This document shows positions 37,627 through 64,000 of a stretch of 64,000 nt of DNA, one piece after another. This stretch comes from Phorcus lineatus (Eukaryota > Mollusca > Gastropoda > Trochida > Trochidae): positions 33,487,764-33,551,763 of the forward strand of contig OV121092.1 in assembly GCA_921293015.1 (NCBI GenBank), in the 5' to 3' direction. Below the pieces are notes generated by a model. The model searched no databases, was not told the DNA's origin, and saw only the letters and a program-made list of their open reading frames with translations. Made by a program: the position numbers and the translations under genes. The number at the start of each line of letters is the position of its first letter. Positions within the stretch are counted from its first letter, which is position 1.

Positions 37627-37666
37627 TGTTATATGTATGTATGTATGTATGTTATATGTATGTATG

Positions 37667-37746
<80 letters not shown>
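37257..37746. repeat. Long (ATGT)n then (AT)n microsatellite
   Basis: About 410 bp of ATGT units with scattered TTATATG and TTTG variants, then about 36 AT units. The long tyrosine/valine/cysteine open frames here are repeat artefacts. Confidence 0.97.
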
Positions 37747-37748
<2 letters not shown>

Positions 37749-37888
37749 TTGATTGATATATAGACACACACACACACTTTTGTTATTCTACACATTGCCA
37801 CCTGATAAAGTAGAAAGCATATACTCCGATAGTCCAGAAGTTTACATGTAAGAAGTTTTTATCCAGAAAATTTGAATATCTATATGAT

Positions 37889-38239
37889 TTATTTTAACAC
37901 GCACCAGATCATGCAACTGCAGGATGTTATCTTGACAACTTCAATAGGCATAACACTGGCTACTGCGTTCGGTGCGTCGCAGGGTACATTGTAGGTTACA
38001 GCTTCAGTGGTGCCTGGGGCGCAGCATTTACAGGATGATTCCAACATATTGTTGTTCTCGAAACTGAAGGATGCAACGCTGTTTGCACAGCCACCCTTGC
38101 ATGAATATTCTTTGATTGGGAATGAGCCGGTGCAGTTTTCCAAAGCAATATTAACATTCTCAGCGACCGGTTCACAAGGCTTCTTCCTACATTGGAACTT
38201 GCAGCATGGATCCGAATCATTCTTGAACCATTCGAAACC
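37889..38239 (-). CDS. Last exon: end of VWC/linker and CTCK cystine knot
   Basis: Starts FEWFKNDSDPCCKFQCRKKP, then the knot: ENCTGSFPIKEYSC, KGGC, SSCKCC, VTYNVPC and the C-terminal SCSCMIWC before VLK and TAA. The Cys pattern (K/S-GC, C-x-CC, C-x-C-xx-C) is that of CTCK domains, here as in other family members the last domain. Confidence 0.9.
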   Translation of the reverse strand, partial: GFEWFKNDSDPCCKFQCRKKPCEPVAENVNIALENCTGSFPIKEYSCKGGCANSVASFSFENNNMLESSCKCCAPGTTEAVTYNVPCDAPNAVASVMPIEVVKITSCSCMIWCVLK

Positions 38240-41200: not shown

Positions 41201-42448
41201 CCTTACATTCCTCCTCTGAACATGGCATTTGTTCTTCTCGCTCAACGCCCTCGCAAGTTTCTTCACCACAGGTACCATCAGTGCAGGATCTTGTTCTGAA
41301 CTTGATCATGTCTCTGCAGTTGCTGACTAAGCAATTCTGTTCATCCCACACTGTCCATTCAGTGATGACTCGTGGAACTGACGAGAAAGATCATAATTTG
41401 TAATCTGGTAATATGAGGTTAAGACAGTTTGGAAGAGCCATTAAAACTTAGGCTTTGTGTGAATTGATAACAGTTTCAAGAAGCAATCATTGCTGCAGAT
41501 GATACACATGATATGAACTGATCATGATTTCAACTTGTTACTGTAGTTAATGTGCAAGGTATGAATTGACCTTTGTTTAAACATGCAAAACAGTCGCATT
41601 ATCTAATATCAATTATATTATGCTTCGGTTTGAATTGATAAAGACATATATGAAAATTGAAACGAAATCAGATCGATGTTGCTTTTGACAAAATAAAATA
41701 TTAACACCTCTGTTTAACCAACGCCTTCTCATTCACATAAAAACTCTCACCTGGGTCAATTGGAGTTGGGATAACTGTACCATTGTCGCAAATACTGAAA
41801 TAATGAAATTGTGTGAAATCGTCAGCATAACTGGAATTTGTATTTTCACAATCCGTTTTCAAATTTTTCTCAATCAATATGTATTTATACCGAATGCCAA
41901 GGGGCGGGATAGCGCAGTGGTTAGCGCGATCGGCTTCGGATCAAGAGGTCCGTTGTTCGAATCCCGCCAGTAGGGTCAAACACCTCATTACTCAACCCTT
42001 AAGTTACTTTACCTAATAACTTGCCACTGTACCTTTAAATTGTTCAAATAACATATTATATTTTGAAAAATGTTACTCATCGAAAATATTTTCTTCCTTT
42101 TCTTCATAAATGAATTCTATTTTAAGAATACATGATACATTTGCATCGAAGGCAACGACCTGTTACGTCGCTGTGAACATATGCTTAAAACAACATGATT
42201 ATTTGACATTATGGAAAGGAACCAACTGTTTAATGCAACTTTCTTCATCCACAGATTCGTCGCCATCACTGAGTGTTTGATTTTCATATATGCATGGACA
42301 CAAATCTCTTGTACAGACTTGACTTTCGGTTTCGGTTGACTGACCACAGTCGGCTGCGTTGTTCGAGGCTCTGACAAAGAAAATGTCAAGATTTGAAATA
42401 ATAATAATAATAATAATAATGGTGATAATGATGATACTACTACTACTT

Positions 42449-42479
<31 letters not shown>

Positions 42480-45400
42480 TACTACTACTACTACTAGTAC
42501 TACTACTGCTACTACTAATACTACTACTACTACTACCACTAATAATGATACTACTACTACAACAACAACTACTAGTATTACTACTACTACTAATGATAAA
42601 AATAATAATACTAATAGATATTATTTGATTTGACCTCTGGTCAGCGAGAATAGGACACTACAGACTACCATCGTTTTTTACAAGATGCCTAATTACTGCT
42701 GGGTTGACAGAGGCACCACTTCCTACAATTGTGTCAACTCACGCCTCAGCGCTCGGCAGGGAATCTATCTTTCTATCTTTCAGTTTACTCAGAAATGAGG
42801 TCACCCACCCGTCAAGCGGGTCAAACAAGTAACTTGATTGATGCGCTTCAAAGGATGAAAATATTTTGAAGGAACTTACCTTGAACGTGTTTGGGTTCCT
42901 TCGCCGCCACATTCTGGCATACAAGCAGTCCATGGCGTCCAGTCATTCCAGTCACAACCTTGAAAAGTCACATTTGTAAACGTTATTCAAATAAGGGTAC
43001 CGAGTTTTTTGTTTTTACTAAAAGGCACAAATGAAGGCCCCAGCCCTTATCAAAACTTGAATAGTTTGAGATTTAAATAACTATTTGAAGTTTAAACAAC
43101 TATTTTTATTTGACAGTGTTAATTATTTATGCATTAGGAAAATGATAACGATGAGAGAAATGCGAAGAAGTACGATGCGGCAACCAACTAAAATAGACAA
43201 TAAAATTCCGTATCTTCCCTGGTCGAAAACTGACCTTCTGTTCACGATTTAATAGTCAGTTCAAGTTCTTCAAAGGTAAATTGAACTAGCCCAATCCTAT
43301 ACCCCTTGATGTAAAAGTAAACAATGAGAATGTATAACATTACATCTACACTTACTAGATTGAAAAACAAATTTGACGATAGCTGATACACAAATCAGGG
43401 GGGGGGGGGGGGAGAGAAAACTAAAACGGTTCAACTTAACGCTCTCCAGATTTAGTCAGAACCTGATATACTGACCTTGTAAGGCAGGGATAAACTGATG
43501 CAGAGTTTATTGCAGTGGCATTGCATTCTATATAACTGTCTGTTTTGTGCTTACGACTGTTCTACAAAAGCATATATTCTGCAATAGTCTTGTTTATGTA
43601 CCGTTAATGAACCGTTGCCGAAAATCATACAACCTCACTGATAAATATTAGTCATCGATTAAATATTACAATGTAGAAGATTTTTAAGACTAAGGTGCGA
43701 TTGTGTCTAAATAACGCGTGATTGTCCCTTTAAAACATTAATGAGATGAACATATTTTGTTTATTTATTGTAAGATGCATCCGAATTCATAAATATATCC
43801 ATTGCTGGGAACTTACAATTTTCAACCTGGGTGCATGTTGGTGTCGTTACTACGCAGCGACTGGAAAATAAATGCAATATTGATCATACAAATGTTGTGA
43901 CAAATATTGTCAGCAAAGCAGTATGAGACCTTATATCTGAAATATCGAAAACTGAATTATGTTGTAAACTATAAAATTGGCAACGGACAATTGGAAATTT
44001 TCAAACTGAAATGGAGCATTATAGGCATTTTTGTAAGAAAAGCTTACATTTGGGGATCATGTACACCCTCTTTTCAAAGTCACCTTTAATTAACGTTAAA
44101 TAATTATTCCGAATCGTTAGTTGCTCACAGTTCTATGACATAAACATTCAAAGCAATAGAAATCTTGCAAAACTTCAAGATCAACGATAACTGATTCGCT
44201 ATCTTGCACAGTGATTTATTTGTAGACTCTATCGTTTTTCAAACAAAGTGATAAATTTGGAACTGAGTTAATGAATATAGAAAGCATGAAAAAAGTTCAT
44301 TTGGTAAAGATATGATCTGATATGAATCAACTTCCAATTTTATGTAGATCTGGAGTTGAGAAAATTAGAACACAATATTTAAGACATGAATAACCATGTG
44401 ACTTTACATGAACTTCATGGAATACATTAAATTTTTTATGACACAGCAGGCATCGTACAGTGATTATGCTTGAAGAGAAGGGATAAAGACCTATTTAAGA
44501 TTGATACAGTAACATGTCATAAGTCAAGCATCTATTAATGAATGTCCTTTCATCCAGTGCGTTTTATCAGTGAAATATGTTTTAAAGATATATTCGTGTG
44601 AGAAAAGCAATCTTGAATGACTGAATTCTTACCATTCTTCGCACTGGTTATCGCTGGGCAGAGATTCACCGTCAGGGTAATTAGTACCTTCGATCCAACA
44701 TCCACACTCTTTGTCCAAAACGCAGGTGTCATTCAGCATGGAGTAGCCTTCTTCGCAAACACAGGTCTCGCCAAGCACACATGAGTCAGTACTGCATTGA
44801 ACAGCGTCTCCTAAGACTTCTCTGGCACACGTGTTGCAGACTTCAGTGCAGTCTTCAACGAGTTTCATATTTTCTCCACAGACAGCTGTTAAGAAAAACG
44901 AGAAATTAAAGAGGTGGTGAATTGGAAAATGATAGGAGAAACTCCTGGTAGTTTGATAATGAATCAGTTAGCGTACGATTGTTTCACAGTAACAAAAACA
45001 TTGTTAAGAAACACGAAGAGTAACTTAGGAGGTGAATCGGAAAGTGATAGGAGAAACTCCTGGTAGTTTGAGAACGTATCAGTTAGCGTACGATTGCTTC
45101 ACAGTAACAAAAACATTGTTAAGAAACACGAAGAGTAACTTAGGAGGTGAATCGGAAAGTGATAGGAGAAACTCCTGGTAGTTTGAGAACGTATCAGTTA
45201 GCGTACGATTGCTTCACAGTAACAAAAACACTGTTACGAAACACGAGGAGTAACTTAGGAGGTGAATCGGAAAGTGATAGGAGAAACTCCTGGTAGTTTG
45301 AGAACGTATCAGTTAGCGTACGATTGCTTCACAGTAACAAAAACACTTTTAAGAAACACGAGGAGTAACTTAGGAGGTGAATCGGAAAGTGATAGGAGAA

Positions 45401-48400
45401 ACTCCTGGTAGTTTGAGAACGTATCAGTTAGCGTACGATTGCTTCACAGTAACAAAAACACTGTTACGAAACACGAGGAGTAACTTAGGAGGTGAATCGG
45501 AAAGTGATAGGAGAAACTCCTGGTAGTTTGAGAACGTATCAGTTAGCGTACGATTGCTTCACAGTAACAAAAACACTTTTAAGAAACACGAGGAGTAACT
45601 TCCCAGCAGGCAATATGACCTTGTATCAACGTTGAAATGACGTCGTTTACCAACGTTGAAATAACGTTGAAATTTGATTGGATTTGAAATTTGCGGCGAC
45701 GTCGAAATCCGACGTTATTTCGACGTCGGTTCAACGTTGAAGCCAAGACGTTGTATTGACGTTGAAAAGACGTCATTTCGACATCAAAGCTTGTTGATCA
45801 GTCAGGTTATGTTAGCTTTATTTCATTCTGATATTTGAAGCTATGTGTCATCTGTAAAGCTAAGCTTTCAACTTCAGCTTAACCATTTGCCTCGGTTCAA
45901 GAGATAAATGGCTGCTCCTGGATATCCATGTAATGGAAATTAAATACGATGTGAGGGTATTAATGTTTATATGACACTGCAACGATTTAGACTTAAGTGT
46001 CACCAAAAAATTTTTTGTTACAAAGGCGCAATTACCGTTTTGTAAGAACTACTAACTTTATGCAAATCGAAAATTTATGTTTTCAGTTGTGAACATAACT
46101 GAAAAAATAAAAACTGTTGAAAAATACCATATACCTTGTTTATTCTAATTAGACATAAGGAGAGAGTTACTTCCCTTTATTGTGAAATTGAAAGAAATTA
46201 ACCTTTATTCATCTAAATCCAATATCAATAACACTTTTAAATGTCAATGATAGCTGTTCGTTTTTGCATTTTTTATTTCATTTTTTAAAACACTCCGTAA
46301 CTCATTTGATGTTAATAATAATAATAAAATGTTATGAAATTAATGACATGTCAATTTTAAGTTGTTCTGATGACGTTGAAACAACGTCAAAACACCAACC
46401 AAATTTCAACGTCAGTTAAAAAACGTTCCGACGTCGAAAATTGGTTGATCGACGTCCTGACCTGAAATCAACCAAATTTCGACGTCGAAATGACGTCAGA
46501 TGCCTGCTGGGTAGGAGGTGAATCGGAAAGTGATAGGAGGAACTCCTGGTAGTTTGAGAACATATCAGTTAGCGTACGATTGCTTCACAGTAACAAAAAA
46601 ACAGTGTTAAGAAACACGAGGAGTAACTTAGGAGGTGAATCGGAAAATGATAGGAGGAACTCCTCGTGGTTTGAGAACATATCAGTTAGCGTACGATTGA
46701 ATCCATGGGTCATTTAATCAGCCTTTGACGGAACTCCACAACTTATAATAGTAACTTACGTGTTGTTTCACAGTTGTTTGGACAGAGGTCCTGATCGACA
46801 GTGGTGTCAGTTTCACAGCTGCAGCTGGGGTTGTCCGAATTGCATGTTCTGCTTCGTTGTCTCATTACGGCCACGATGCTACAGTCATCGGGACAAGCTT
46901 GGTTCCATGATCCCCATGATCCTAGGCACTCATCTTCTGTTGCTGTAATGAACATGTAAGAACATTAGGACCCTTCTGCAATTGGCTGAACCAAGGGTTG
47001 GGCCGGGGATCAGAATGAAAAATGAAGAAATTCGTAAAAATAACAAACTGGAGATACCCTTCGAGTATCAGTTCAACAAGTTTAAAGAGCCACTCCGTGA
47101 TTTTCATAACATATTATTTACCTTTGATACGAACCTAAATGTCATATGCCGTAATACAAAGTCAAACATCTTAACTTTTCATATCCAAAAGACGTATACA
47201 TGACAATTACTGGTTTTCAATTAAAATCTAAAAACAGCTTTATAAATGCACAGAGGTGTAGATAACACGTCCAATATACATGGATATTAGTAATATAACC
47301 TAAAAACGCTATCAACTCCTAACTCGCCTCCTGGCTGTTTAAGATAAGATTCCAAAATTACGTTAGACTATTTGACGCGCGCCACTGTCAGGTTTTCGAG
47401 TATAATTGCGACGTTCTACCTTCATATTGTCACTGTAGAATAAAACAATAAGCTTTAGAATTTGTCTTTTTGGTGACAGTAGATACTTCGCGATCAAATG
47501 ACACGATTGATTAAGTTTGGCGTATATGACTCAAACAACTCACGAAGGAGCCCTGTCATCATCAGGGTTGTATACAGGTTGTATAAATACCTCATATCAA
47601 CTGCCTGTACTTTTATAACTTACAACTTCTATTTACTGTACTTCTGTTACATTACAATTCTAGATGAAAAGAGTTCTAGAAAATATTTCTGCATCACACT
47701 TTTTAACAACTCACTCATTTTCGCATTTTACCCAGCAAAATATGATGTCAATGCGGTGTCTACACATATCAAAACGACCATAGACCATTAATTCCTACTA
47801 TTTTGTTTTATCAGCGAATGAAATCAAAGACACGTTCTTAATATCATTATCAAGTACCACATCTCGTTCTAAAGAACTATGATTTAAGCGAGAACAATTA
47901 TGTCCAAAACACAATATTTCTTTACATGATTGAAATGATATGACTTCAGTATCATTAAAAGGTGACTTCAGTTTTATACTTACGAGACGTTGTTGTGATG
48001 ATTGTTGTTGCTGTAGTTGCTAGAAAATGATAATAAGACAAGATCAATGCATGCTTTACTATCAATTTTTTTTAAAAAGCCAATAGGTTCAAATGAAAGT
48101 AAAAATATTAACGGGAGGTATATCTATTTACCAACTAGCACATAAAATGTAAAATAATTTTAATAAATAACAACGACAATATGACCTGCACTAAAATTTT
48201 TTTTAGACATTTCAAACTCACGCACGATGCTTAAAAGCCAATCGTATTTCCGCATAGGACAACCAAAATATCCCAAAACTCTTTATTGATGATATTGGAG
48301 AATATACAACATGAAACCATATGAAACGAAATAGGATGTAAAAAAACAACAGGAAACATCAAGATTATATTTTTATTCGGGATAATATTTTCCTCGGAAA

Positions 48401-51400
48401 AGGAAGAGAAGTTGATCATCACCAAAAGCATTAATGGAGGGTATTCCGGAGGCAGTTGGGTTGTGTATGGAGGGAGAACTGGTAAAAAAACACTTGATAG
48501 ATAAATATTAATATAAACATGTAAACATAAATTAATAAACAAAAAGAATCATAAAACGGGAACAAGGTGTAATATGTGGAGCTAGTGCTGTGATCTCGAT
48601 AATAAATGAACACATTATCTGCATATAAATTACAATATATATATCTATAATATAAATTACTTATATACTATATACCATATATATAATATATACTTTATTT
48701 GAAACATAGTTAAGGATCATTTATTTTGACTAGATATATTAAGTTGTGACCCCATCGATAAAGATTCGACTATCTATTGATTATATAAAACATTATAATA
48801 AAAAAAAATTGATGCAAGGTTTCTATCTTACCTTTCTTGCATACTTTGATTGAAATTTCTGAAGTATCACCTTGTACGACAATCAAAATTATATTTGGTC
48901 CATCCTTAAAGCAGAAAAAAAAGAAACATGATTTAATTTATTTTTTAAATTTCAAAACCTTTAAATATTTCAGGCCTGGGACTAAGAGAAGTTGCAGTAA
49001 CAACTTTTCTAACATGTGGTGACAAAAAGCAGAGCGATCATACCATAGATAGGAATGTTTTGGTAGTGTGTCCTCCACAAGAAACTAGATAGTATATAAC
49101 AAAAATATGAATATGTCATATATCAAAGGCACTTAACATCATTTCGGTATCACCATATTTAAAAAAATAATTTTTGTATCACCATTCAATCATTTGAGGC
49201 AGGGATTTCGATTTCCCCTTGATTGGAATATTACTTTTAAATTTTCTTTAAAATGTACTACTGCCCCTTTAAATTATAATTTTATTTAAAATTATAATAT
49301 AAAATGTGAATTGTGTAGCAGAAGATTGAACGTATACCAGGAATATTTGAGACGGATATACATTGGTAGACGAAAACATGTTTTTGAATCTTAGACATCT
49401 TGCTGCCAACCAAAAAATGGTAGAACTTGGTCGTTTATTTTGACTCTATGTCTACCGTCTAACGAATACAGAATCAAAGAAAGAAATGTGTCAGTCTTGA
49501 TAGAAAATTCAAATACTTATGTTTACACCTGTGAGCAAGCAAAGGTTAATCTTATTAACAAATTGACAGTCAGACACATGCAAGGTGCTCAAATTGAAAG
49601 AAAATTCGCAAACTAAGGCTTACATGTGTACCCTTATAGACATGAAATAAATAAATGTATCCGACTTGTTAGATAATTCAAATACTAATACTTACACCTG
49701 TGGGCAAACTGTCAGGTGTGAAGTAAACGAGAGTGCGGACTGTACTGTCTGTAGTGCCAGTGTATAGAAGATTGTTGCTTTCATCAGGAGTTACTATTGC
49801 TAGTGACCCATCCTTGTACAATTTAACTAGATTTTCATCAACTGAAACAATAATTTCAAATATCTCTTGATGTAATCGTAGACTTGCATGTGCTAAATGC
49901 TATCTAAAGATTGAATCCTATTACTCCTTTCATTGCAAAGAGTAGACCAGTGTTATGGTCAGCGTTCTCAATGTTCATATCTTCAATAAGTATATAAAAG
50001 AATAGGGAAGAAAATAATTGCTAAAAAGTACCTGAGGTTGTCACTGGTGTTTTGTTCTCAACCAACACTGGGTTCTGTGAAGAAGTACCCTGAAAGCAAT
50101 GGCAGAAATGACATAGATGAATATATTATTACAAAATATTTAGATTGAAAGCGATATAAGGCTAACACATTCGGTGTTTTAAAATATATTCAATTGCACA
50201 GGGCAACAAACAAATGATAAGAAATTTGATTACAAATGAATATCCATATATACATCTATGGTCAATAGAGCATTCTCAACACTATATCAACTTTTTGATT
50301 TTTAAAAAAATCATTTGATCATTTTTGATAAAAATTTATAATAAATTAAAAAACAAAGGATACTGAATATCACCAGTTCAATATTTCATAATGATAAGTA
50401 TACCAAACAATTCTTACAGGTATATGATTCATATCAAACCGTAAAGAACAATATAGTTCCGTCTTGACTTTTGTCAAAAATATCTTGAATATTTACATCA
50501 CTTACAGTTAGTTCTTCTCCAATTACGTTAAAATCGGCATCTGTTGGTGCACCCGAGATTGTCATCAAAGTTCCATCAATAGTCACTTTGATTAATTTAG
50601 TGGGGTCATTTTCGTTTAGGATATCGCCACTGTTGAGTGGTATATCTTCTTCATTTCCATCAATACATACTTCTGTAAAAAAGAGGAGGATTACGACTTT
50701 GTGTATGTTTGACACACCCATAAAATATTTCACACGAAAAAGATACAATGTTTATATATATGCTCGCATATTGGCTTGGAGAGGTTCTCATAAAAGGTCT
50801 ATCTTAACTTGATATGTGATGCAGAAGAACAGATTTACATGACTAAAGTTCAAAATAACTAGAAAAATTGATTACATTAATTGTCTGTTAGCTGAGAAAA
50901 TTGAATTGACCTTTCTTAATAATTGACTAAAGATTGATGAATTTTGGTTCTCCTCGAAATAGCTGAGTGAATGTTCAAAGAGCCAAAAAGTATTGTTTAT
51001 TGTCTCGGTATGAAATAAATATAGATTTGTTACCTGCTGGCGTTTCACCTGGAGTCACTGATGGTGTTACACTTGGTGTGACTGACGGTGTTACACTAGG
51101 TGTGACTGATGGTGTTACACTGGGTGTGACTGATGGTGTTACACTGGGTGTGACTGATAGTGTTACACTGGGTGTGACTGATGGCGTTACACTGGGTGTG
51201 ACTGATGGCGTTACACTTGATGTGACTGATGGCGTTACACTTGGTGTGACTGATGGTGTTACACTAGGTGTGACTGATGGCGTTGCATTAGGTGTTGGTT
51301 CAGTAGCTGCAATGAAATTTGATGTCCTTCTTGAACAGGCTTCATCTTGAACATCTTCACTAAAAGTGTTATTATGCCTCAGTTTTGGCAATAACTGATA

Positions 51401-54400
51401 AAGACAGCACCTTTTATACATATTAAAACACGTGGGAAAATGATATCATAACTTCAGAATAGAACTCTTACAGTGGTTGCATGTGAAGAAAAGGTACAAT
51501 GGCTATGGTACCATATGAAAGTTAGTAATTTGGTTAAGGTTTTATAGGAGCGGATAGTCTTAATTTAATTATGAACATTGTTATTCTTGGCAACTTTAAT
51601 CGTTCTTAATTGTTACAATGACAAATTGATATTCATAGAATTAAACCTATCATGTCGCAAAATGTTTGCTGTATTTCCTAAATAATTTTAACTGATTATG
51701 TATAGATATTCTTGAATTGCTTTTGAAAGTTCCAAATGACTTTTTCATTTATATATTTAAGCAATAACATTACAGAACTCAAGGAATAACATATTGATAC
51801 TGTATAGCTATCTCACCTTCTTTGCATACTTTGAATGTTACTGTTGAAGCATCAGCTCCAGCTGGAAGAACAACCAAGACTGTTCTTGGTCCATCCTAGT
51901 CACAAATAACAGAAGAATATATGATCAGTGAAATCGGTTATTTCTTTGCAATACTATGGTTGTCTTACTCTTATGGGTTTAAACATTCACATAATTCTTG
52001 ACGTAGACCTAAAGAATGTTGATATTTTCAAGTGACAGGACAAGAGAAATAAGAGCAGTTTTACTATTGATATTTTTTCTTAATGAATTGATCACTGTTT
52101 TACTCATCAACTGTTTCCTCTTCAAATGAACTTTCGAAAGATATTACGCAATCCAAATGTGTATTGATATTCAACTTTATCATAATATACAGTCCGCGGA
52201 GTGATAGATAAAGGTTGTTGGAATTTTAATAATGCAAAAGGATCCTGAAAATCAACAAAAGATGCATATTAACTGACTAACTCTCTTACTGCCTTTTGTT
52301 TATATAATTTTCTAACAAGTGGTTGTAACTGATAGAGCAGAGACTGAAACTATTGTTGAAGATGCTGTTTTTATGTTCCATCTTACGTGAACTAAGATAG
52401 TGACTAAACAAGCTTTTTTGCAATGAATTTTGACAAAGTGCTCAGTCTATGGATTCCTCTGAAATGTTTCCTAACAAAATAGGTATTTCACTGACAAATC
52501 CAAAGGAAGAGCAAAGGTTAATCTTATTAACACATTGACAGTCAGACACATGCAAGGTGCTCAAATTGAAAGAAAATTCGAACACTAAGGCTTACATGTA
52601 TACCCTTATAGACATGAAATAAATAAATGTATCCGACTTGTTAGATAATTCAAATACTTATACTTACACTTGTGGGCAACCTGTCAGGTGTGAAGGGAAC
52701 GAGAGTCCGGACTGTACTGTCTGTAGTGCCAGTGTATGGAAGATTGTTGCTTTCATCAGGAGTTACTATTGCTAGTGACCCAGTCTTGTACAATTTAACT
52801 AGATTTTCATCAACTGAAACAATAATTTCAAATATCTCTTGATGTAATCGTAGACTTGCATGTGCTAAATGCTATCTAAAGATTGAATCCTAATACTCCT
52901 TTCATTGCAAAGAGTAGACCAGTGTTATGGTCAGCGTTCTCAATGTTCATATCTTCAATAAGTATATAAAAGAATAGGGAAGACAATAATTGCAAAAAAG
53001 TACCTGAGATCGTCACTGGTGTTTTGTTCTCAACCAACACAGGGTTCTGTGAAGAAGTACCCTGAAAGCAATGGCAGAAATGACATAGATGAATATATTA
53101 TTACAAAATATTTAGATTGAAAGCGATATAAGGCTAACACATTAGGTGTTTTAAAATATATTCATCTGCACAGGGCAACAAACAAATGATAAGAAATTTG
53201 ATTACAAATGAATATCCATATAAACATCTATGGTCAATAGAGCATTCTCAACACTATATCAACTTTTTGATTTTTTAAAAGATCATTTGATCATTTTTGA
53301 TAAAAATTTATAATAAATTAAAAAACAAAGGATACTGAATATCACCAGTTCAATATTTCATAATGATAAGTATACCAAACAATTCTTACAGGTATATGAT
53401 TCATATCAAACCGTAAAGAACAATATAGTTCCGTCTTGACTTTTGTCAAAAATATCTTGAATATTTACATTACTTACAGTTGGTTCTTCTCCAATTACGT
53501 AAAACTCGGCATCTGTTGGTGCACCCGAGATTGTCATCAAAGTTCCATCAATAGTCACTTTGATTAATTTAGTGGGGTCATTTTCGTTTAGGATATCGCC
53601 ACTGTTTAGTGGTACATCCTCTTCATTTCCATCAGTACATACTTCTGTAAAAAAGAACAAAAATCAGTTAGTTGAGGATTACGACTTTGTGTATGTTTGA
53701 CACACCCATAAAACATTTCACACGAAAAATATAAAAGGTTTATATATATGCTCGCTTTTTGGCTTGGAGAGGTTCTCATAAAAGGTCTATCTTAACTTGA
53801 TATGTGATGCAGAAGAACAGATTTACATGACTAAAGTTCAAAATAACTAGAAAAATTGATTACATTAATTGTCTGTTAGCTGAGAAAATTGAATTGACCT
53901 TTCTTAATAAGTGACTAAAGATTGATGAATTTTGGTTCTCCTCGAGATAGCTGAGTGAATGTTCAAAGAGCCAAAAAGTATTGTTTATTGTCTCGGTATG
54001 AAAAAAAATATAGATTTGTTACCTGCTGGCGTTTCACCTGGAGTCACTGATGGTGTTGCACTTGGTGTGACTGACGGTGTTACACTGGGTGTGACTGATG
54101 GTGTTACACTAGGTGTGACTGATGGTGTTACACTGGGTGTGACTGATGGTGTTACACTGGGTGTGACTGATGGTGTTACACCAGGTGTGACTGATGGCGT
54201 TACACTGGGTGTGACTGATGGCGTTACACTTGCTGTGACTGATGGCGTTACACTTGGTGTGACTGATGGTGTTACACTAGGTGTGACGGACGGTGTTACT
54301 CTGGGTGTGGCTGATGGCGTTGCACTAGGTGTTGGTTCAGTAGCTGCAATGAAATTTGATGTCCTACTTGAACAGGCTTCATCTTGAACATCTTCACTAA

Positions 54401-57400
54401 AAGTGTTATTATGCCTCAGTTTTGGCAATAACTGATAAAGACACAACTTTTGATACATATTAAAACACGTGGGAAAATGATATCATAACTTCAGAATAGA
54501 ACTCTTACAGTGGTTGCATGTGAAGAAAAGGTACAATGCCTATGGTAACATATGAAAGTTAGTGAGTTGGTTAAGGTTTTATAGGAGCGGATAGTCTTAA
54601 TTTAATTATGAACATTGTTATTCTTGGCAACTTTAATCGTTCTCAATTGTTACAATGACAAATTGATATTCATAGAATTAAACCTATCATGTTGCAAAAT
54701 GTTTGCTGTATTTCCTAAATAATTTTAACTGATTGTGTATAGATATTCTTGAATTGCTTTTGAAAGTTCCAAATGACTTTTTCATTTATATATTTAAGCA
54801 ATAACATTACAGAACTCAAGGAATAACATATTGATACTGTATAGCTATCTCACCTTCTTTGCATAATTTGAATGTTACTGTTGAAGCATCAGCACCAGCT
54901 GGAAGAACAACCAAGACTGTTCTTGGTCCATCCTAGTCACAAATAACAGAAGAATATATGATCAGTGAAATCGGTTATTTCTTTGCAATACTATGGTTGT
55001 CTTACTCTTAAGGGTTTAAACATTCACATAATTCTTGACGTAGACCTAAAGAATGTTGATATTTTCAAGATACAGGCAAAGAGAAATAAGAGCAGTTTTA
55101 CTATTGATATTTTTTCTTAATGAATTGATCACTGTTTTACTCATCAACTGTTTCCTCTTCAAATGAACTTTCGAAAGATATTACGCAATCCAAATGTGTA
55201 TTGATATTCAACTTTATCATAATATACAGTCCGCGGAGTGAAAGGTAAAGGTTGTTGGAATTTCAATTATGCAAAAGTATCCTGAAAATCAACAAAAGAT
55301 GCATATTAACTGACTAACTCTCTTACTGCCTTTTATTCATATAATTTTCTAACGAGTGGTTGTAACAGATAGAGCAGAGACTGATACCATTTTTGAAGAT
55401 GCTGTTTTTATGTTCTATCTTACGCGAACTAAGATAGTGACTAAACAAGCTTTTTTGCAATGAATTTTGACAAAGTGCTCAGTCTATGGATTCCTCTGAA
55501 ATGTTTCCTAACAAAATAGGTATTTCACTGACAAATCCAAAGGAAGAGCAAAGGTTAATCTTATTAACACATTGACAGTCAGACACATGCAAGGTGCTCA
55601 AATTGAAAAAAAATTCGCAAACTAAGGCTTACATGTGTACCCTTATAGACATGAAATAAATAAATGTATCCGACTTGTTAGATAATTCAAATACTAATAC
55701 TTACACCTGTGGGCAACCTGTCAGGTGTGAAGGGAACGAGAGTGCGGACTGTACTGCCTGTAGTGCCAGTGTATAGAAGATTGTTGCTTTCATCAGGAGT
55801 TACTATTGCTAGTGACCCATCCTTGTACAATTTAACTAGATTTTCATCAACTGAAACAATAATTTCAAATATCTCTTGATGTAATCGTAGACTTGCATGT
55901 GCTAAATGCTATCTAAAGATTGAATCCTAGTACTCCTTTCATTGCAAAGAGTAGACCAGTGTTATGGTCAGCATTCTCAAATGTTCATATCTTCAATAAG
56001 TATATAAAAGAATAGGGAAGAAAATAATTGCAAAAAAGTACCTGAGATCGTCACTGGTGTTTTGTTCTCAACCAACACTGGGTTCTGTGAAGAAGTACCC
56101 TGAAAGCAATGGCAGAAATGGCATAGATGAATATATAATAACATAATATCTAGATTGAAGGCGATATAAGGCTAACACATTAGGTGTTTTAAAATATATA
56201 CATCTGCACAGGGCAACAAACAAATGATAAGAAATTTGATTACAAATGAATATCCATATATACCTCAATGGTCAATAGAGCATTCTCAACACTATATGAA
56301 CTTTTTGATTTTTTAAAAGATCATTTGATCATTTTTGATAAAATTTTATAATAAATTAAAAAAACAAAGGATACTGAATATTACCAGTTCAATATTTCAT
56401 AATGATAAGTATACCAAACAATTCTTACAGATACATGATTCATATCAAACCGTAAAGAATAACATAGTTCCGTCTTGACTTTTGTCAAAAATATCTTGAA
56501 TATTTACATTACTTACAGTTTGTTCTTCTCCAATTACGTAAAAATCGGCATCTGTTGGTGCACCCGAGATTGTCATCAAAGTTCCATCAATAGTCACTTT
56601 GATTAATTTAGTGGGGTCATTTTCGTTTAGGATATCGCCACTGTTGAATGGTATATCTTTCTTCATTTCCATCAGTACATACTTCTGTAAAAAAAGAACA
56701 AAAATCAGTTAGTTGAGGATTACGACTTTGTGTATGTTTGACACACCCATAAAACATTTCATACGAAAAATATAAAAGGTTTATATATATGCTCGCTTTT
56801 TGGCTTGGAGAGGTTCTCATAAAAGGTCTATCTTAACTTGATATGTGATGCAGAAGAACAGATTTACATGACAAAAGTTCAAAATAACTAGAACAATTGA
56901 TTACATTCATTGTCTGTTAGCTGAGAAAATTGAATTGACCTTTCTTAATAATTGACTAAAGATTGATGAATTTTGGTTCTCCTCGAAATAGCTGAGTGAA
57001 TGTTCAAAGAGCCAAAAAGTATTGTTTATTGTCTCGGTATGAAATAAATATAGATTTGTTACCTGCTGGCGTTTCACCTGGAGTCACTGATGGTGTTGCA
57101 CTTGGTGTGACTGACGGTGTTACACTAGGTGTGACTGATGGTGTTACACTGGGTGTGACTGATGGTGTTACACTGGGTGTGACTGATGGTGTTACACTGG
57201 GTGTGACTGATGGTGTTACACTGGGTGTGACTGATGGCGTTACACTGGGTGTGACTGATGGCGTTACACTTGGTGTGACTGATGGCGTTGCACTAGGTGT
57301 TGGTTCAGTAGCTGCAATGAAATTTGATGTCCTACTTGAACAGGCTTCATCTTGAACATCTTCACTAAAAGTGTTATTATGCCTCAGTTTTTGGCAATAA

Positions 57401-60400
57401 CTGATAAAGACAGCACCTTTTATACATATTAAAACACGTGGGAAAATGATATCATAACTTCAGAATAGAACTCTTACAGTGGTTGCATGTGAAGAAAAGG
57501 TACAATGCCTATGGTAACATAAGAAAGTTAGTAAGTTGGTTAAGGTTTTATAAGAGCGGATAGTCTTAATTTAATTATGAACATTGTTATTATCGGCAAC
57601 TTTAATCGTTCTCAATTGTTACAATGACAAATTGATATTCATAGAATTCATGTCGCAAAATGTTTGCTGTATTTCCTAAATAATTTTAACTGATTGTGTA
57701 TAGACATTCTTGAATTGCTTTTGAATGTTCCAAATGACTTTTTCATTTATATATTTAAGCAATAACATTACAGAACTCAAGGAATAACATATTGATACTG
57801 TATAGCTATCTCACCTTCTTTGCATACTTTGAATGTTACTGTTGAAGCATCAGCTCCAGCTGGAAGAACAACCAAGACTGTTCGTGGTCCATCCTAGTCA
57901 CACATACCAGAAGAATATATGATCAGTGAAATCGTTGATTTCTTTGCAATACTATGGTTGTCTTACTCTTATGGGTTTAAACATTCACATAATTCTTGAC
58001 GTAGACCTAAAGAATGTTGATATTTTCAAGATACAGGCAAAGAGAAATAAGAGCAGTTTTACTATTGATATTTTTTCTTAATGAATTGATCACTGTTTTA
58101 CTCATCAACTGTTTCCTCTTCAAATGAACTTTCGAAAGATATTACGCAATCCAAATGTGTATTGCATATTAACTGACTAACTCTCTTACTGCCTTTTGTT
58201 TATATAATTTTCTAACGAGTGGTTGTAACTGACAGAGCAGAAACTGATACCATTGTTGAAGATGCTGTTTATATGTTCCATCTTACGTGAACTAAGATAG
58301 TGACTAAACAAGCTTTTTTGCAATGAATTTTGACAAAGTGCTCAGTCTATGGATTCCTCTGAAATGTTTCCTAACAAAATAGGTATTTCACTGACAAATC
58401 CAAAGCAAGAGCAAAGGTTAATCTTATTAACAAACTGACAGTCAGACACGTGCGAGGTGCTCAAATTGAAAGAAAATTCGAACACTAAGGCTTACATGTG
58501 TACAATTATAGACATGAAATAAATAAATGTATCCGACTTGTTAGATAATTCAAATACTTATACTTACACCTGTGGGCAACCTGTCAGGTGTGAAGGGAAC
58601 GAGAGTGCGGACTGTACTGCCTGTTGTGCCAGTGTATGTAAGATTGTTGCTTTCATCAGGAGTTACTATTGCTACTGACCCATCCTTGTACAATTTAATT
58701 AGATTTTCATCAACTGAAACAATAATTTCAGATATCTCTTGATGTAATCGTAGACTTGCATGTGCTAAATGCTATCTAAAGATTGAATCCTAGTACTCCT
58801 TTCATTGCAAAGAGTAGACCAGTGTTATGGTCAGCATTCTCAAATGTTCATATCTTCAATAAGTATATAAAAGAATAGGGAAGAAAATAATTGCAAAAAA
58901 GTACCTGAGATCGTCACTGGTGTTTTGTTCTCAACCAACACTGGGTTCTGTGAAGAAGTACCCTGAAAGCAATGGCAGAAATGGCATAGATGAATATATA
59001 ATAACATAATATCTAGATTGAAGGCGATATAAGGCTAACACATTCGGTGTTTTAAAATATATACATCTGCACAGGGCAACAAACAAATGATAAGAAATTT
59101 GATTACAAATGAATATCCATATATACCTCAATGGTCAATAGAGCATTCTCAACACTATATCAACTTTTTGATTTTTTAAAAGATCATTTGATCATTTTTG
59201 ATAAAATTTTATAATAAATTAAAAAAACAAAGGATACTGAATATTACCAGTTCAATATTTCATAATGATAAGTATACCAAACAATTCTTACAGATACATG
59301 ATTCATATCAAACCATAAAGAATAACATAATTCCGTCTTGACTTTTGTCAAAAATATCTTGAATATTTACATTACTTACAGTTTGTTCTTCTCCAATTAC
59401 GTAAAAATCGGCATCTGTTGGTGCACCCGAGATTGTCATCAAAGTTCCATCAATAGTCACTTTGATTAATTAGGTGGGGTCATTTTCGTTTAGGATATCG
59501 CCACTGTTGAGTGGTATATCTTCTTCATTTCCATCAATACATACTTCTGTAAAAAAGATGAAAAAATCAGTTAGTGGAGGATTACGACTTTGTGTATGCT
59601 TGACACACCCATAAAACATTTCACACGAAAAAGATACAAGGTTTATATATATATGCTCGCAAATTGGCTTGGAGAGGTTCTCATAAAAGGTCTATCTTAA
59701 CTTGATATGTGATGCAGAAGAACAGATTTACATGACTAAAGTTCAAAATAACTAGAACAATTGATTACATTCATTGTCTGTTAGCTGAGAAAATTGAATT
59801 GACCTTTCTTAATAAGTGACTAAAGATTGATGAATTTTGGTTCTCCTCGAAATAGCTGAGTGAATGTTCAAAGAGCCAAAAAGTATTGTTTATTGTCTCG
59901 GTATGAAATAAATATAGATTTGTTACCTGCTGGCGTTTCACCTGGAGTCACTGATGGTGTTGCACTTGGTGTGACTGACGGTGTTACACTGGGTGTGACT
60001 GATGATGTTACACTAGGTGTGACTGATGGTGTTACACTGGGTGTGACTGATGGTGTTACACTGGGTGTGACTGATGGTGTTACACTGGGTGTGACTGATG
60101 GTGTTACACTGGGAGTCACTGATGGTGTTGCACTTGGTGTGACTGATGGTGTTACACTGGGTGTGACTGATGGCGTTACACTGGGTGTGACTGATGGTGT
60201 TACACTGGGTGTGACTGATGGTGTTACACTGAGTGTGCCTGATGGTGTTACACTGGGTGTGACTGATGGCGTTACACTGGGTGTGACTGATGGCGTTGCA
60301 CTAGGTGTTTGTTCAGTAGCTGCAATGAAATTTGATGTCCTACTTGAACAGGCTTCATCTTGAACATCTTCACTAAAAGTGTTATTATGCCTCAGTTTTG

Positions 60401-62659
60401 GCAATAACTGATAAAGACAGCACCTTTTATACATATTAAAACACGTGGGAAAATGATATCATAACTTCAGAATAGAACTCTTACAGTGGTTGCATGTGAA
60501 GAAAAGGTACAATGCCTATGGTAACATATGAAAGTTAGTAAGTTGGTTAAGGTTTTATAAGAGCCGATAGTCTTAATTTAATTATGAACATTGTTATTAT
60601 CAGCAACTTTAATCGTTCTCAATTGTTACAATGACAAATTGATATTCATAGAATTAAACCTATCATGTCGCAAAATGTTTGCTGTATTTCCTAAATAATT
60701 TTAACTGATTGTGTATAGATATTCTTGAATTGCTTTTGAATGTTCCAAATGACTTTTTCATTTATATATTTAAGCAATAACATTACAGAACTCAAGGAAT
60801 AACATATTGATACTGTATAGCTATCTCACCTTCTTTGCATACTTTGAATGTTACTGTTGAAGCATCAGCTCCAGCTGGAAGAACAACCAAGACTGTTCTT
60901 GGTCCATCCTAGTCACAAATAACAGAAGAATATATGATCAGTGAAATCGTTGATTTCTTTGCAATACTATGGTTGTCTTACTCTTAAGGGTTTAAACATT
61001 CACATAATTCTTGACGTAGACCTTAAGAATGTTGATATTTTCAAGTTACAGGCAAAGAGAAATAAGAGCAGTTTTACTATTGATATGTTTTCTTAATGAA
61101 TTGATCACTGTTTTACTCATCAACTGTTTCCTCTTCAAATGAACTTTCGAAAGATATTACGCAATCCAAATGTGTATTGATATTCAACTTTATCATAAAA
61201 TACAGTCCACTGAGTGATAGGTAAAGGTTATTGGAATTTCAATTATGCAAAAGTATCCTGAAAATCAACAAAAGATGCATATCAACTGACTAACTCTCTT
61301 ACTGCCTTTTGTTTATATAATTTTCTAACGAGTGGTTGTAACTGATAGAGCAGAGACTGATACCATTGTTGAAGATGCTGTTTTTATGTTCCATCTTACG
61401 TGAACTAAGATAGTGACTAAACAAGCTTTTTTGCAATGAATTTTGACAAAGTGCTCAGTCTATGGATTCCTCTGAAATGTTTCCTAACGAAATAGGTATT
61501 TCACTGACAAATCCAAAACAAGAGCAAAGGTTAATCTTATTAACAAACTGACAGTCAGACACATGCAAGGTGCTCAAATTGAAAGAAAATTTGAACACTA
61601 AGGCTTACATGTGTACAATTATAGACATGAAATAAATAAATGTATCCGACTTGTTAGATAATTCAAATACTAATACTTACACATGTGGGCAACCTGTCAG
61701 GTGTGAAGGGAACGAGAGTGCGGACTGTACTGCCTGTTGTGCCAGTGTATGTAAGATTGTTGCTTTCATCAGGAGTTACTATTGCTACTGACCCATCCTT
61801 GTACAATTTAATTAGATTTTCATCAACTGAAACAATAATTTCAAATATCTCTTGATGTAGTCGTAGACTTGCATGTGCTAAATGCTATCTAAAGATTGAA
61901 TCCTAGTACTCCTTTCATTGCAAAGAGTAGACCAGTGTTATGGTCAGCATTCTCAAATGTTCATATCTTCAATAAGTATATAAAAGAATAGGGAAGAAAA
62001 TAATTGCAAAAAAGTACCTGAGATCGTCACTGGTGTTTTGTTCTCAACCAACACTGGGTTCTGTGAAGAAGTACCCTGAAAGCAATGGCAGAAATGACAT
62101 AGATGAATATATAATAACATAATATTTAGATTGAAAGCGATATAAGGCTAACACATTAGGTGTTTTAAAATATATACATCTGCACAGGGCAACAAACAAA
62201 TGATAAGAAATTTGATTACAAATGAATATCCATATATACCTCAATGGTCAATAGAGCATTCTCAACACTATATGAACTTTTTGATTTTTTAAAAGATCAT
62301 TTGATCATTTTTGATAAAATTTTATAATAAATTAAAAAAACAAAGGATACTGAATATTACCAGTTCAATATTTCATAATGATAAGTATACCAAACAATTC
62401 TTACAGATACATGATTCATATCAAACCATAAAGAATAACATAATTCCGTCTTGACTTTTGTCAAAAATATCTTGAATATTTACATTACTTACAGTTTGTT
62501 CTTCTCCAATTACGTAAAAATCGGCATCTGTTGGTGCACCCGAGATTGTCATCAAAGTTCCATCAATAGTCACTTTGATTAATTTAGTGGGGTCATTTTC
62601 GTTTAGGATATCGCCACTGTTGAGTGGTATATCTTCTTCATTTCCATCAGTACATACTT
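37889..62659 (-). CDS. SCO-spondin/mucin-like secreted protein, 37 exons, 5' end not identified
   Basis: Read from high to low coordinates. There are five tandem cassettes (62659-48832), a Thr-rich linker exon (48019-47984), then exons 46942-46760, 44885-44633, 43860-43817, 42958-42880, 42370-42227, 41794-41751, 41377-41207, 40477-40316, 39733-39584, 39292-39096, 38665-38558 and 38239-37889 (stop 37891-37889). About 5.7 kb of coding sequence keeps a consistent phase at every junction apart from two damaged exons (stop at 59470-59472, insertion near 56658). The tail contains TSP1, TIL and VWC-like domains and a C-terminal CTCK cystine knot, as in SCO-spondin, gel-forming mucins and VWF. In that group CTCK domains mediate dimerisation. 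It should be extracellular and O-glycosylated on its VTPS repeats. No signal peptide is visible, so the 5' end probably lies beyond the window. Confidence 0.88.
38558..39292 (-). CDS. Two exons: TIL domain followed by VWC-like domain
   Basis: Exon 39292-39096 carries a TIL-type Cys pattern (VCEDPDKVYTNSTSCEKTC, GCICAENMYNRDGECVP) and begins the VWC (CVYNGVVYP). Exon 38665-38558 completes it (DGSPVTNPEDECAEYICEEG). Phases are 1-0 and 0-0. Confidence 0.88.
39584..41377 (-). CDS. Three consecutive TSP1-repeat exons
   Basis: Exons 41377-41207 (TEWTVWDEQNC...RTRSC), 40477-40316 (WATWTDCSVEC...VRNRTY) and 39733-39584 (YPWSEWGTCSDECG...VTRTR) each encode one TSP1-like repeat with W-x-x-W/C-x-x-C features, all flanked by phase-1 introns. 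Between 40478 and 41206 the intron holds a diverged doublet of ATTTCATACAAAATGAAAAT (about 40515 and 40670) and nothing else clear. Confidence 0.9.
41751..42958 (-). CDS. Three exons: TSP1 repeat plus short VWC/TIL-like segment
   Basis: Exon 42958-42880 begins a TSP1 repeat (CDWNDWTPWTACMPECGGEG), and 42370-42227 finishes it and starts a VWC-like stretch (CPCIYENQTLSDGDESV). Exon 41794-41751 (ICDNGTVIPTPIDP) completes that stretch. The donor of the middle exon (CA/GTTGGT at 42226) is weak and was chosen because it is the phase-2 option that joins correctly to the next exon. Confidence 0.75.
41901..42040 (+). mobile_element. tRNA-derived SINE in an intron of the large gene
   Basis: Head GGGATAGCGCAGTGGTTAGC with B box GTTCGAATCCCGCC; nearly the same head as 35914-36050. 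No clear target duplication was identified. Confidence 0.8.
42396..42620. repeat. Compound (AAT)n/(ACT)n trinucleotide microsatellite
   Basis: Runs of AATAAT, then ACTACT with TACTTCTAC interruptions, lie 26 bp upstream (on the minus strand) of the acceptor of exon 42370-42227. The poly-Leu and poly-Val open frames are artefacts. Confidence 0.95.
43398..43411. repeat. Poly(G) run
   Basis: A run of about 14 G in the intron between exons 43860-43817 and 42958-42880. The rest of that intron shows nothing. Confidence 0.8.
43817..44885 (-). CDS. Two exons: TIL domain and VWC-like domain
   Basis: Exon 44885-44633 encodes VCGENMKLVEDCTEVCNTC, a TIL Cys set ending CVCEEGYSMLNDTCV, then CGCWIEGTNYPDGESLP. 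Exon 43860-43817 closes the VWC (RCVVTTPTCTQVEN). Same order as in SCO-spondin and mucin TIL-VWC units. Confidence 0.88.
44913..46700. repeat. 115-bp tandem repeat, eight units, split by a transposon
   Basis: GGAGGTGAATCGGAAAGTGA starts at about 45028, 45143, 45258, 45373 and 45488 (115-bp steps), with an earlier diverged unit at 44913. Two more follow at 46513 and 46628, beyond the insertion at 45602-46511. Units contain GATAGGAGAAACTCCTGGTA and CAGTTAGCGTACGATTG. Confidence 0.95.
45602..46511. mobile_element. 910-bp element with CCCAGCAGGCA terminal inverted repeats
   Basis: CCCAGCAGGCA at 45602-45612 and TGCCTGCTGGG at 46501-46511. Both subterminal regions are rich in AACGTTGAAA and GACGTC motifs in opposite orientation. 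It interrupts the 115-bp array, so the empty site can be read from neighbouring units; at most one T is duplicated. No transposase frame was seen. Confidence 0.9.
46760..46942 (-). CDS. TSP1-like exon
   Basis: Encodes TEDECLGSWGSWNQACPDDC, then RQRSRTC and CSCETDTTVDQDLCPNNC. A single phase 1-1 exon following the Thr-rich linker. Confidence 0.88.
47081..47555. mobile_element. TIR MITE, ACTCCGTGA family
   Basis: Starts TTTAAAGAGCCACTCCGTGA and ends near CTCACGAAGGAGCCCTGTC. High similarity along its length to 20803-21247. Located in the intron between exons 48019-47984 and 46942-46760. Confidence 0.85.
47984..48019 (-). CDS. 36-nt Thr-rich linker exon
   Basis: Encodes TTATTTIITTTS between a TTTTCTAG acceptor and a GTAAGT donor. 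It joins the last cassette (KVCKK) to the first TSP1 exon with correct phase 1-1. Confidence 0.75.
48832..51306 (-). CDS. Cassette M5 (last copy) of the tandem module
   Basis: Exons a 51306-51034 (TEP then VTPS repeats, 273 nt), b 50672-50440, c 50089-50032, d 49841-49696, e 48904-48832. Residue landmarks: b EVCIDGNEEDIPLNSGDI and DGTLMTISGAPTDADF; c GTSSQNPVLVENKTPV; d DENLVKLYKDGSLAIVTP; e DGPNIILIVVQGD ending KVCKK. Exon e here differs from the other four (73 versus 79 nt), and intron similarity to other cassettes stops near 49535, marking the edge of the duplicated unit. Module function is unknown; alternating hydrophobic strands suggest a beta-sandwich. Confidence 0.85.
51817..54343 (-). 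CDS. Cassette M4 of the tandem module
   Basis: Exons a 54343-54023 (321 nt VTPS array), b 53644-53412, c 53061-53004, d 52813-52668, e 51895-51817. All are intact. Exon e reads DGPRTVLVVLPAGADAS...KVCKE. Introns are close to base-for-base copies of those in M2 and M3. Confidence 0.85.
54854..57311 (-). CDS. Cassette M3, exon b frameshifted
   Basis: Exons a 57311-57063 (249 nt, the shortest array), b 56684-56451, c 56099-56042, d 55850-55705, e 54932-54854. Exon b is 234 nt instead of 233: one extra T on the plus strand near 56658-56660 (GAAGAAAGAT instead of GAAGAAGAT). This puts the rest of the exon out of frame and soon hits a stop. It may be a homopolymer error or real damage. Confidence 0.8.
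57815..60319 (-). CDS. Cassette M2, exon b with in-frame stop
   Basis: Exons a 60319-59927 (393 nt, the longest array), b 59546-59314, c 58962-58905, d 58713-58568, e 57893-57815. In b the codons reading ACT AAA in M1 and M4 are ACC TAA (stop at 59470-59472, minus strand). The other four exons are open. Confidence 0.8.
60830..62659 (-). CDS. Cassette M1 (first copy), lacking the VTPS exon
   Basis: Exons b 62659-62427, c 62075-62018, d 61826-61681, e 60908-60830, all open. Similarity to the other cassettes runs on to about 63008 and then ends just where exon a would be found. No VTPS exon is present upstream in the window. Exon b starts in phase 1 and needs an upstream exon that could not be identified. 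Confidence 0.8.
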
Positions 62660-63671
62660 CTGTAAAAAAAAGATCAAAAATCAGTTAATTGAGGATTACG
62701 ACTTTGTGTATGTTTGACACACCCATAAAACATTTCATACGAAAAATATAAAAGGTTTATATATATGCTCGCTTTTTGGCTTGGAGAGGTTCTCATAAAA
62801 GGTCTATCTTAACTTGATATGTGATGCAGAAGAACAGATTTACATGACAAAAGTTCAAAATAACTAGAAAAATTGATTACATTCATTGTCTGTTAGCTGA
62901 GAAAACTGAATTAACCTTTGATAAAAATTGACTAAATTTTGATGAATTTTGGTTCTCTGTGAAATAGCTGAGTGAATGTTCAAAGAGCCTAAAAGTATTG
63001 TTTATTGTTTTGAGGATTTTGTCGTGTTTTTTTTCAACGAAAATGTGACCTGTTCAATGGCTTGAGAGAGAAGATCGTAGATTGCCAAGGAATTATCTCG
63101 AGATAACTCCTCCTAACAAAGAAAATCCAGTCATGTGTTAATCTGCCCACTTTGTTCATTTTATGCACGACCTTGCCAAACTACGCCTCTTGCATGGATT
63201 TACCATCCGTATGATAAAGGTATTTACAACCAAGTTTGTTGCAATGTCATAGTAGCAGTCATTTTAATTGGTTCGCTTGATTCATGGCATAGACACCTAA
63301 CTTGCTTTCACATCATGCTTTCTAGTTTTTCAAATACACAGCGAATCGATCTCGTCTTTGAATCCTGGGTGTAAGTTGAGATTTATCGGAATTTATCCCC
63401 GGATTATCAAGGATGGTGTACAATACGACGGGGCTGCTTCGCTGCGGAAGTTGACATAAATATCTTATTATATGAATGGATTATTTCGTCTTTCTGATTG
63501 GCCTACTTGGTCACATGACAGCAATGACGTCAGGCGATGTCAATCTGTGTGGATCGCGAGAGGCTGTTATAACAATCCAAACACCTCCGGTTGATAACAA
63601 TAGATTATGAAAATACCGGTCTACCGAAAATATAAGAAGAATGGTAATTCAAGGCCTAATTCATATGATAA
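62660..63671. other. Upstream flank of the large gene, no exon identified
   Basis: From 62660 to about 63008 it is cassette intron. Beyond that is unrelated sequence. A short exon-like minus-strand stretch near 63058-63120 did not fit the required phase. Confidence 0.4.
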
Positions 63672-63773
63672 AACAATTATAGACTTCAGACTCGGTTGAT
63701 CGAATGATTTATATTACATGTGCAAGGTCGATAAATCATTGGATCAACCTTACTTGAAGTCAATAATTGTTTA
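63672..63773. repeat. Hairpin element, about 44-bp arms
   Basis: AACAATTATAGACTTCA..GGTTGATCGAATGATTTAT on the left pairs with ATAAATCATTGGATCAACC..TGAAGTCAATAATTGTT on the right with several mismatches. Confidence 0.75.
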
Positions 63774-63874
63774 ATGTTGACATTCGATGTGAGTGATTAT
63801 GTGACTGTCTGGTTGATTCCTTAGCCCCGCTTGGGCAATATGTCGGCCACTAGCGGCATGAAATTCACTATGTA

Positions 63875-64000
63875 CCACAGGCGCCATACTTCATATGTAA
63901 AGGTAGCTAAATAACATTAACAAGGCCTGACAGAGTAGTGTCTGCAATATGACCGGAAATGCGAACTGGAATCTGTCTACGAAGTTTACAGAGGTAACCG
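63875..64000. mobile_element. Partial copy of the AACAAGG..TGACAGAG element, cut by the window end
   Basis: TACCACAGGCGCCA, TAGCTAAATAACATTAACAAGG, CTGACAGAGTAGTGTCTGCAA and CTGGAATCTGTCTACGAAG match 19590-19815 and 34313-34455. Confidence 0.7.

Follow-up and report, generated by a model that had tools for sequence, protein, structure and literature searches.

Five tandem cassettes of about 3 kb lie in a 64,000-nucleotide stretch of the Phorcus lineatus genome (contig OV121092.1, here C19, positions 33487764-33551763; referred to as the window), and the question is which gene they belong to, what the module they encode is and whether all five serve a working protein. The preliminary description of the window had read them as an amplified, unrecognised extracellular module in a SCO-spondin- or mucin-like gene. 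The repeat proved real but its setting differs from that reading, and the interpretation was supported in part. Another 140 kb past the right edge of the window, to C19:33691763, was also read. The strength of mucus is thought to be set partly by small folded modules between the glycosylated rods of gel-forming mucins, and a giant mucus-protein gene here appears to carry an undescribed small extracellular module. Probably the window carries a tandem duplicate, truncated on its 5' side, of the 3' end of a giant gene of the gel-forming-mucin type. In the main gene the module would lie between long Pro/Thr/Ser-rich (PTS) stretches and immediately ahead of a TSP1/TIL/cystine-knot tail.

The repeat units of the window

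Self-comparison gave five repeat units of 2.9-3.1 kb at window positions 49538-63008 on the minus strand, 94-97% identical and the fifth partial, that carry exons b, c, d and e with PTS (mucin) exons in between (Table 1). The similarity of the five units is far beyond chance, and their number, spacing and near-identical introns, as first described, were borne out by self-BLAST and by exon-by-exon comparison. The AG and GT borders are intact in every in-unit exon copy (five each of b, c and d, four of e). The phases chain without a break, from 1 to 1 for the PTS exon, 1 to 0 for b, 0 to 1 for c, 1 to 0 for d and 0 to 1 for e, and intact exons b and c together make 225 nucleotides in frame. PTS repeat numbers are copy-specific in this array.

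Exon b starts, on the minus strand, at the higher of its two coordinates in Table 1. The positions given for it earlier (50440, 53412, 56451, 59314 and 62427) are open-frame ends; a GTAAGT donor lies 66 bases earlier in all five copies. Because exon b had been extended 66 bases beyond this donor, the module was estimated at about 172 residues, whereas the correct splice sites give 150 residues (148 if the older exon e is used). That exon, assigned to the last module, is present, but as an older, diverged version situated beyond the repeat unit. The proposed KVCK end of the module was found in four of the five copies; copy 3 ends in KLCK. A single Cys at each end does not hold for all five copies, since copy 5 has a third Cys at residue 124.

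Table 1. Features of the window and of the adjoining part of C19 (window positions unless marked C19)
Feature	Position	Strand	Remarks
Exon b copy 5	62493..62659	-	phase 1 to 0; intact; AG/GTAAGT, open frame
Exon c copy 5	62018..62075	-	phase 0 to 1
Exon d copy 5	61681..61826	-	phase 1 to 0; extra Cys at its end
Exon e copy 5	60830..60908	-	phase 0 to 1
PTS (SVTP repeat) exon	59927..60319	-	phase 1 to 1; 131 codons; 24-bp repeat
Exon b copy 4	59380..59546	-	stop TAA at codon 26
Exon c copy 4	58905..58962	-	
Exon d copy 4	58568..58713	-	
Exon e copy 4	57815..57893	-	
PTS exon	57063..57311	-	phase 1 to 1
Exon b copy 3	56517..56684	-	one extra base; frame lost after codon 9
Exon c copy 3	56042..56099	-	
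Exon d copy 3	55705..55850	-	
Exon e copy 3	54854..54932	-	KLCK
PTS exon	54023..54343	-	phase 1 to 1
Exon b copy 2	53478..53644	-	intact
Exon c copy 2	53004..53061	-	
Exon d copy 2	52668..52813	-	
Exon e copy 2	51817..51895	-	
PTS exon	51034..51306	-	phase 1 to 1
Exon b copy 1	50506..50672	-	intact
Exon c copy 1	50032..50089	-	
Exon d copy 1	49696..49841	-	
Probable remnant, older exon d end and donor	49473..49538	-	left edge of array; 82% to unit over 66 bases
Older diverged exon e closing copy 1	48832..48904	-	outside repeat unit
Small Thr-rich exon	47984..48019	-	phase 1 to 1, by eye
TSP1-like Cys-rich exon	46760..46942	-	by eye; no Pfam match
TIL-like Cys-rich exon	44633..44885	-	by eye; no Pfam match
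Cys-rich tail exon piece, no assigned type	42226..42366	-	open, identical in three blocks; two chance-level Pfam matches
TSP1-like exon piece	41199..41369	-	by eye; no Pfam match
TSP_1 domain exon	40314..40475	-	Pfam PF00090, E 6e-5
TSP_1 domain exon	39585..39731	-	Pfam PF00090, E 1e-5
TIL domain exon	39096..39293	-	Pfam PF01826, E 1e-5
C-terminal cystine knot, to stop codon	37889..38212	-	PF03045 (DAN) E 9e-6, over cut-off; PF00007 (Cys_knot) E 2e-4, just under
Block 1 of three tandem 3'-end blocks	35135..64000	-	extends about 600 bases beyond window
36 PTS-exon cassettes, about 1.5 kb	C19:33590964-33624561 and 33669237-33687626		window-extended 103201-136798 and 181474-199863
4,273-aa stop-to-stop frame, GTPS-type repeats	C19:33629626-33642444		window-extended 141863-154681
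Diverged module, main gene	C19:33666022-33668618		four exons, same phases

Copies 1, 2 and 5 are open throughout; copy 3 is broken by a frameshift and copy 4 by a stop codon. Over the 10 pairs of copies, divergence was 1.1-4.9% in exons and 2.2-4.7% in introns. Pooled nonsynonymous divergence was 0.0296 against a synonymous value of 0.0347, a pN/pS of 0.85 from ten pairs that are not independent, leaving aside two copy-3 frameshift codons, the codon pairs with the copy-4 stop and exon e of copy 1. The array in the window is thus close to neutral. Among its 25 variable codons, 8 vary synonymously only and 17 are residue-changing, the stop included. The 44 informative sites are clustered by pattern, and none of 5000 permutations in a mosaic test was equally clustered, which suggests that the window copies probably exchanged tracts. 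The mosaic test and the copy tree agree with the recent duplication, with exchange between copies, that had been proposed.

Tandem 3'-end blocks and the main gene

The 3' part of the gene forms three tandem blocks, with block 1 at 35135 to about 64610, block 2 reaching to about 87263 and block 3 starting at 87264 (window-extended coordinates). The window holds the outermost block, without the 5' part. Exon b is found five times in block 1, three times in block 2 and once in block 3, with one diverged copy further upstream. Of these 10 copies in the sequence read, three carry lesions, two of them in the window (copies 3 and 4) and the third in block 2. The five-copy array is thus not the whole story, as there are further module copies outside the window. 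Nor was the notion of five working modules in one gene supported, given that two of the five are broken, the array is near neutral and it stands in one of three copies of the 3' end.

The nine b-c-d copies show graded divergence of 1.3-4.6% and a tree structure across blocks. The copy tree pairs units from different blocks, which fits three units predating the block duplication. The extra base of copy 3 recurs 25 kb away, in a block-2 exon b at C19:33569318-33569485; in the tree, these two frameshifted copies (1.3 and 2.2) group as sisters, with 1.28% divergence. A frameshift common to two sister copies was most likely inherited, rather than being a sequencing slip.

Blocks 1 and 2 end at an identical point, 30 bases short of a PTS exon, and are followed there by junction sequence. 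In the genome search, the 40 scored of 650 candidates contained no match to the unique part of the junction beyond the two block junctions, and no copy of the 5' end of the main gene at a block junction. The other junction matches were to a dispersed repeat inside the junction sequence. A VWD domain or long PTS part in front of block 1 was not found in the sequence read, and frames at window 62660-64000, checked by eye for a block-1 first exon or signal peptide, gave nothing convincing.

In the Cys-rich tail of block 1, two TSP_1 domains and one TIL domain scored over the cut-off; two TSP1-like exons and one TIL-like exon were recognised by eye only. The tails of the three blocks were compared over 8 exon pieces and 517 codons, the small Thr-rich exon, for which there was no tblastn match, standing outside the comparison. 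All three tails are open over these codons. Between blocks 2 and 3 there are 6 synonymous changes and no nonsynonymous ones, against 8 and 6, respectively, between blocks 1 and 3 and 4 and 6 between blocks 1 and 2. Since blocks 2 and 3 agree in residues, the six amino-acid changes of the compared tail belong to block 1. The cystine-knot frame of block 1 stops three codons before those of blocks 2 and 3 (window 37889). An array of 115-bp units lies beside the TIL-like exon at window 44886-45601, with a further piece at 46512-46699, and alignments suggest that its length varies among the three blocks.

Upstream of block 3 there are 23 cassettes of about 1.53 kb with one PTS exon apiece, followed by PTS frames of 4,273 (72% Pro/Thr/Ser) and 2,567 residues (67%), both measured stop to stop, more PTS frames, the diverged module and another 13 PTS cassettes. 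Identity among the 36 cassettes is 90-100% over both groups and has a median of 98% within each. Their exon ends and phase 1 were read by eye, the donor pattern matching in 0 of 36, and one cassette (window-extended 181474) ends unlike the others. On the same (minus) strand, VWD was matched in two pieces at C19:33719425 and C8 at 33717632 and 33726237, the last carrying an internal TGA. From strand, order and family logic across C19:33691764-33717924, we infer that VWD/C8, PTS region and tail form one gel-forming-mucin-like gene of about 150 kb. The marks of a gel-forming mucin found here are VWD-C8 on the N-terminal side, presumably continuous with the PTS region, a long PTS region and a C-terminal cystine knot. 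The TSP_1, TIL and DAN/Cys_knot matches of the tail, together with these upstream VWD and C8 exons, bear out the original placement of the array in a mucin/SCO-spondin-like gene.

Because phase 1 marks both borders of the module and of the PTS exons, unequal crossing-over can add or drop cassettes with the frame kept. In the window such crossing-over would have run to five copies, which would since have drifted nearly neutrally, with exchange; two of them are broken. With these lesions, the contribution of the array to a working protein is probably slight or nil, unless splicing leaves out the damaged modules. The tail of block 1, open in all 8 exon pieces (517 codons), counts against a dead block 1, as this is not needed of a dead copy. 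Block 1 may have a new first exon.

The possibility was considered that the tandem blocks and arrays are an assembly artefact, in which haplotypes or mis-ordered repeats have been set side by side. The block junction is 99.7% identical at two places and blocks 2 and 3 are 98.5% identical over 8.5 kb, a level that fits the range of allelic difference in marine invertebrates. However, the graded divergence of the nine b-c-d copies and their tree across blocks, the frameshift common to two places and the copy-specific PTS repeat numbers make an artefact unlikely. Moreover, haplotype duplication should yield pairs, not five, and the assembly of the 958-Mb genome in 74 contigs, with C19 at 47.9 Mb, suggests that it was made from long reads.

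It is also doubtful that a single gene makes alternative use of the three tandem 3' ends, a phase-1 PTS exon being spliced into block 1, 2 or 3 so that the protein receives five, three or one modules. Exon b starts in phase 1 in all copies and PTS exons end in phase 1 (by eye in the 1.5-kb cassettes), all tails are open over the 517 codons compared, and the blocks, all downstream of the main gene, share one strand. Chimeric transcripts that join exons of neighbouring tandem mucin genes have been reported for stickleback spiggin (PMC4989455). Such use of the blocks would, however, need read-through past the end of block 3 and skipping of exon b where it is broken (copies 3 and 4), and the six amino-acid differences seen among the compared tail pieces all fall in block 1.

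An improbable alternative is that block 1 works as a short gene in its own right, with a separate promoter and a first exon beyond the module array. The open tail pieces and the three intact modules of five would suit such a gene, but copies 3 and 4 would stop its translation, the frames at 62660-64000 held no obvious signal-peptide exon by eye, and the unique part of the junction was without a match elsewhere among the candidates scored.

The module as a domain

The diverged module of the main gene retains both end Cys and has exons of unchanged length except for one codon in b. It is identical to the block-3 module at 76 of 147 residues with a dN/dS of 0.40 (bootstrap 0.24-0.62) and to the module of window copy 5 at 77 of 149 residues with a dN/dS of 0.38 (0.24-0.59), the bootstrap resampling codons within one pair at a time. 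The phases, lengths and Cys pair kept by this copy and the dN/dS of about 0.4 indicate that the module is a constrained domain. It is under long-term purifying selection, unlike the near-neutral window array. That exons b-e are non-coding and their open frames due to chance in a non-coding repeat is very improbable, for although the near-neutral pN/pS, the similar divergence of exons and introns and the lesions in two copies would fit, the diverged module keeps frame, phase, Cys and exon length (but for one codon) at a dN/dS of 0.40.

Searches of Pfam, NCBIfam and PHROGs gave E 0.12 at best and PDB sequences gave no significant match, in keeping with the earlier statement that the module matches no known domain. 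With a 3-sequence profile, an fn3 domain of MyBP-C was met in PDB at E 0.81; it was absent with a 5-sequence profile and was taken as chance, and the Pfam fn3 models did not match the module. The 5-sequence profile met two unrelated PDB proteins, at E 0.52 and 0.76, also taken as chance. An internal repeat (b against c-d-e) was rejected because 1223 of 2000 shuffles scored as high. Among prokaryote genomes, 58 stretches fitted a pattern and none was a relative. Two module queries of the P. lineatus genome gave at least 37 and at least 29 matches among the best candidates scored, all at C19:33.53-33.67 Mb.

Structure prediction was applied to pieces only, with pLDDT 48.6 for exon b alone and 50.2 for exon d alone, and each showed two short strands and no helix. 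The module may form a small domain, probably rich in beta strands, that a single disulfide closes. Open-access PMC titles and abstract starts contained no description of the module or locus, papers there not being searchable by sequence. The new aspect looks to be the module and its place, the mode of amplification being already known.

Comparison with known mucins and SCO-spondin

The gene resembles gel-forming mucins of the MUC2/MUC5AC/MUC5B type in its upstream VWD and C8, its huge PTS region interrupted by a small module and its C-terminal cystine knot. It differs from them in that the locus has no CysD match and instead an undescribed module with one conserved Cys pair, in the TSP1 domains of the tail and in single-PTS-exon cassettes repeated with their introns. 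The CysD domain (Mucin2_WxxW, PF13330) likewise stands between PTS stretches in several copies, nine in MUC5AC (PMC11933400). Unlike CysD, the module has no PF13330 match, and the five aligned module sequences have no Trp and two conserved Cys. None of the 25 genome matches listed for PF13330 is at this locus; 21 of them are at C19:6.88-6.91 Mb. A second mucin-like locus on the same chromosome (C19:6871451-6914118) has VWD, C8 and at least 21 CysD matches.

Placed like CysD between PTS stretches, the module is likely, by analogy, to have the role of a folded spacer or cross-linker. It might space or weakly cross-link the glycosylated rods, in the way CysD does in vertebrate mucins. If so, the presence of an unrelated module in the place of CysD, alongside a CysD mucin in the same genome, would suggest that such a role has been filled more than once. 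A stronger version seems a long shot, namely that the module founds an undescribed domain family acting as CysD does elsewhere, and that the blocks, with their one, three and five modules, serve as alternative gene ends by which splicing or unequal crossing-over tunes the number of cross-linkers.

SCO-spondin features LDLa, EMI, F5/8C and SCOR domains. It also has TIL domains, as this tail does, and the likeness found here is in several TSP1 and TIL domains and a C-terminal cystine knot. TSP1 repeats with a cystine-knot C-terminus are common to SCO-spondin and the limpet adhesive protein P-vulgata_6, whose four TSP1 domains and cystine-knot end make its tail the nearest described one met here (PMC7333891). 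The present gene differs from both in its PTS region, which is of mucin type and thousands of residues long, and in the b-e module.

In the SmPoMuc genes of Schistosoma, too, coding exons are repeated along with near-identical introns, under concerted evolution, and the same paper cites spider silk genes likewise (PMC2576457). Unlike SmPoMuc, there are here four exons per module plus a PTS exon, and whole 3'-end blocks are duplicated too. Spiggin of stickleback consists of tandem MUC19 genes, for which the authors propose unequal crossing-over (PMC4989455). The spiggins described there have VWD, whereas the extra copies here keep the 3' end, without VWD in the sequence read. That selection is strongly relaxed on newly arisen repeat copies has been reported to be a general pattern (PMC5120217). 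The present locus is a clean natural case in which phase-1 cassettes and whole gene ends have been added, exchanged and broken.

Several other features were seen in the window. Exons of a carbonic anhydrase gene (PF00194) lie on the opposite (plus) strand at 22517-22795 (E 2e-5, just under the cut-off) and 33469-33579 (2e-13). Two AT-rich stretches with 67-bp tandem arrays, at 26137-27024 and 29741-30610, form an inverted pair that is 94% identical. On the plus strand, 23588-23902 looked by eye like a mariner-type transposase fragment, without a Pfam match, and 41903-41969 gave an Rfam tRNA match barely over the gathering score and none with ARAGORN, so that it may be a tRNA-derived repeat.
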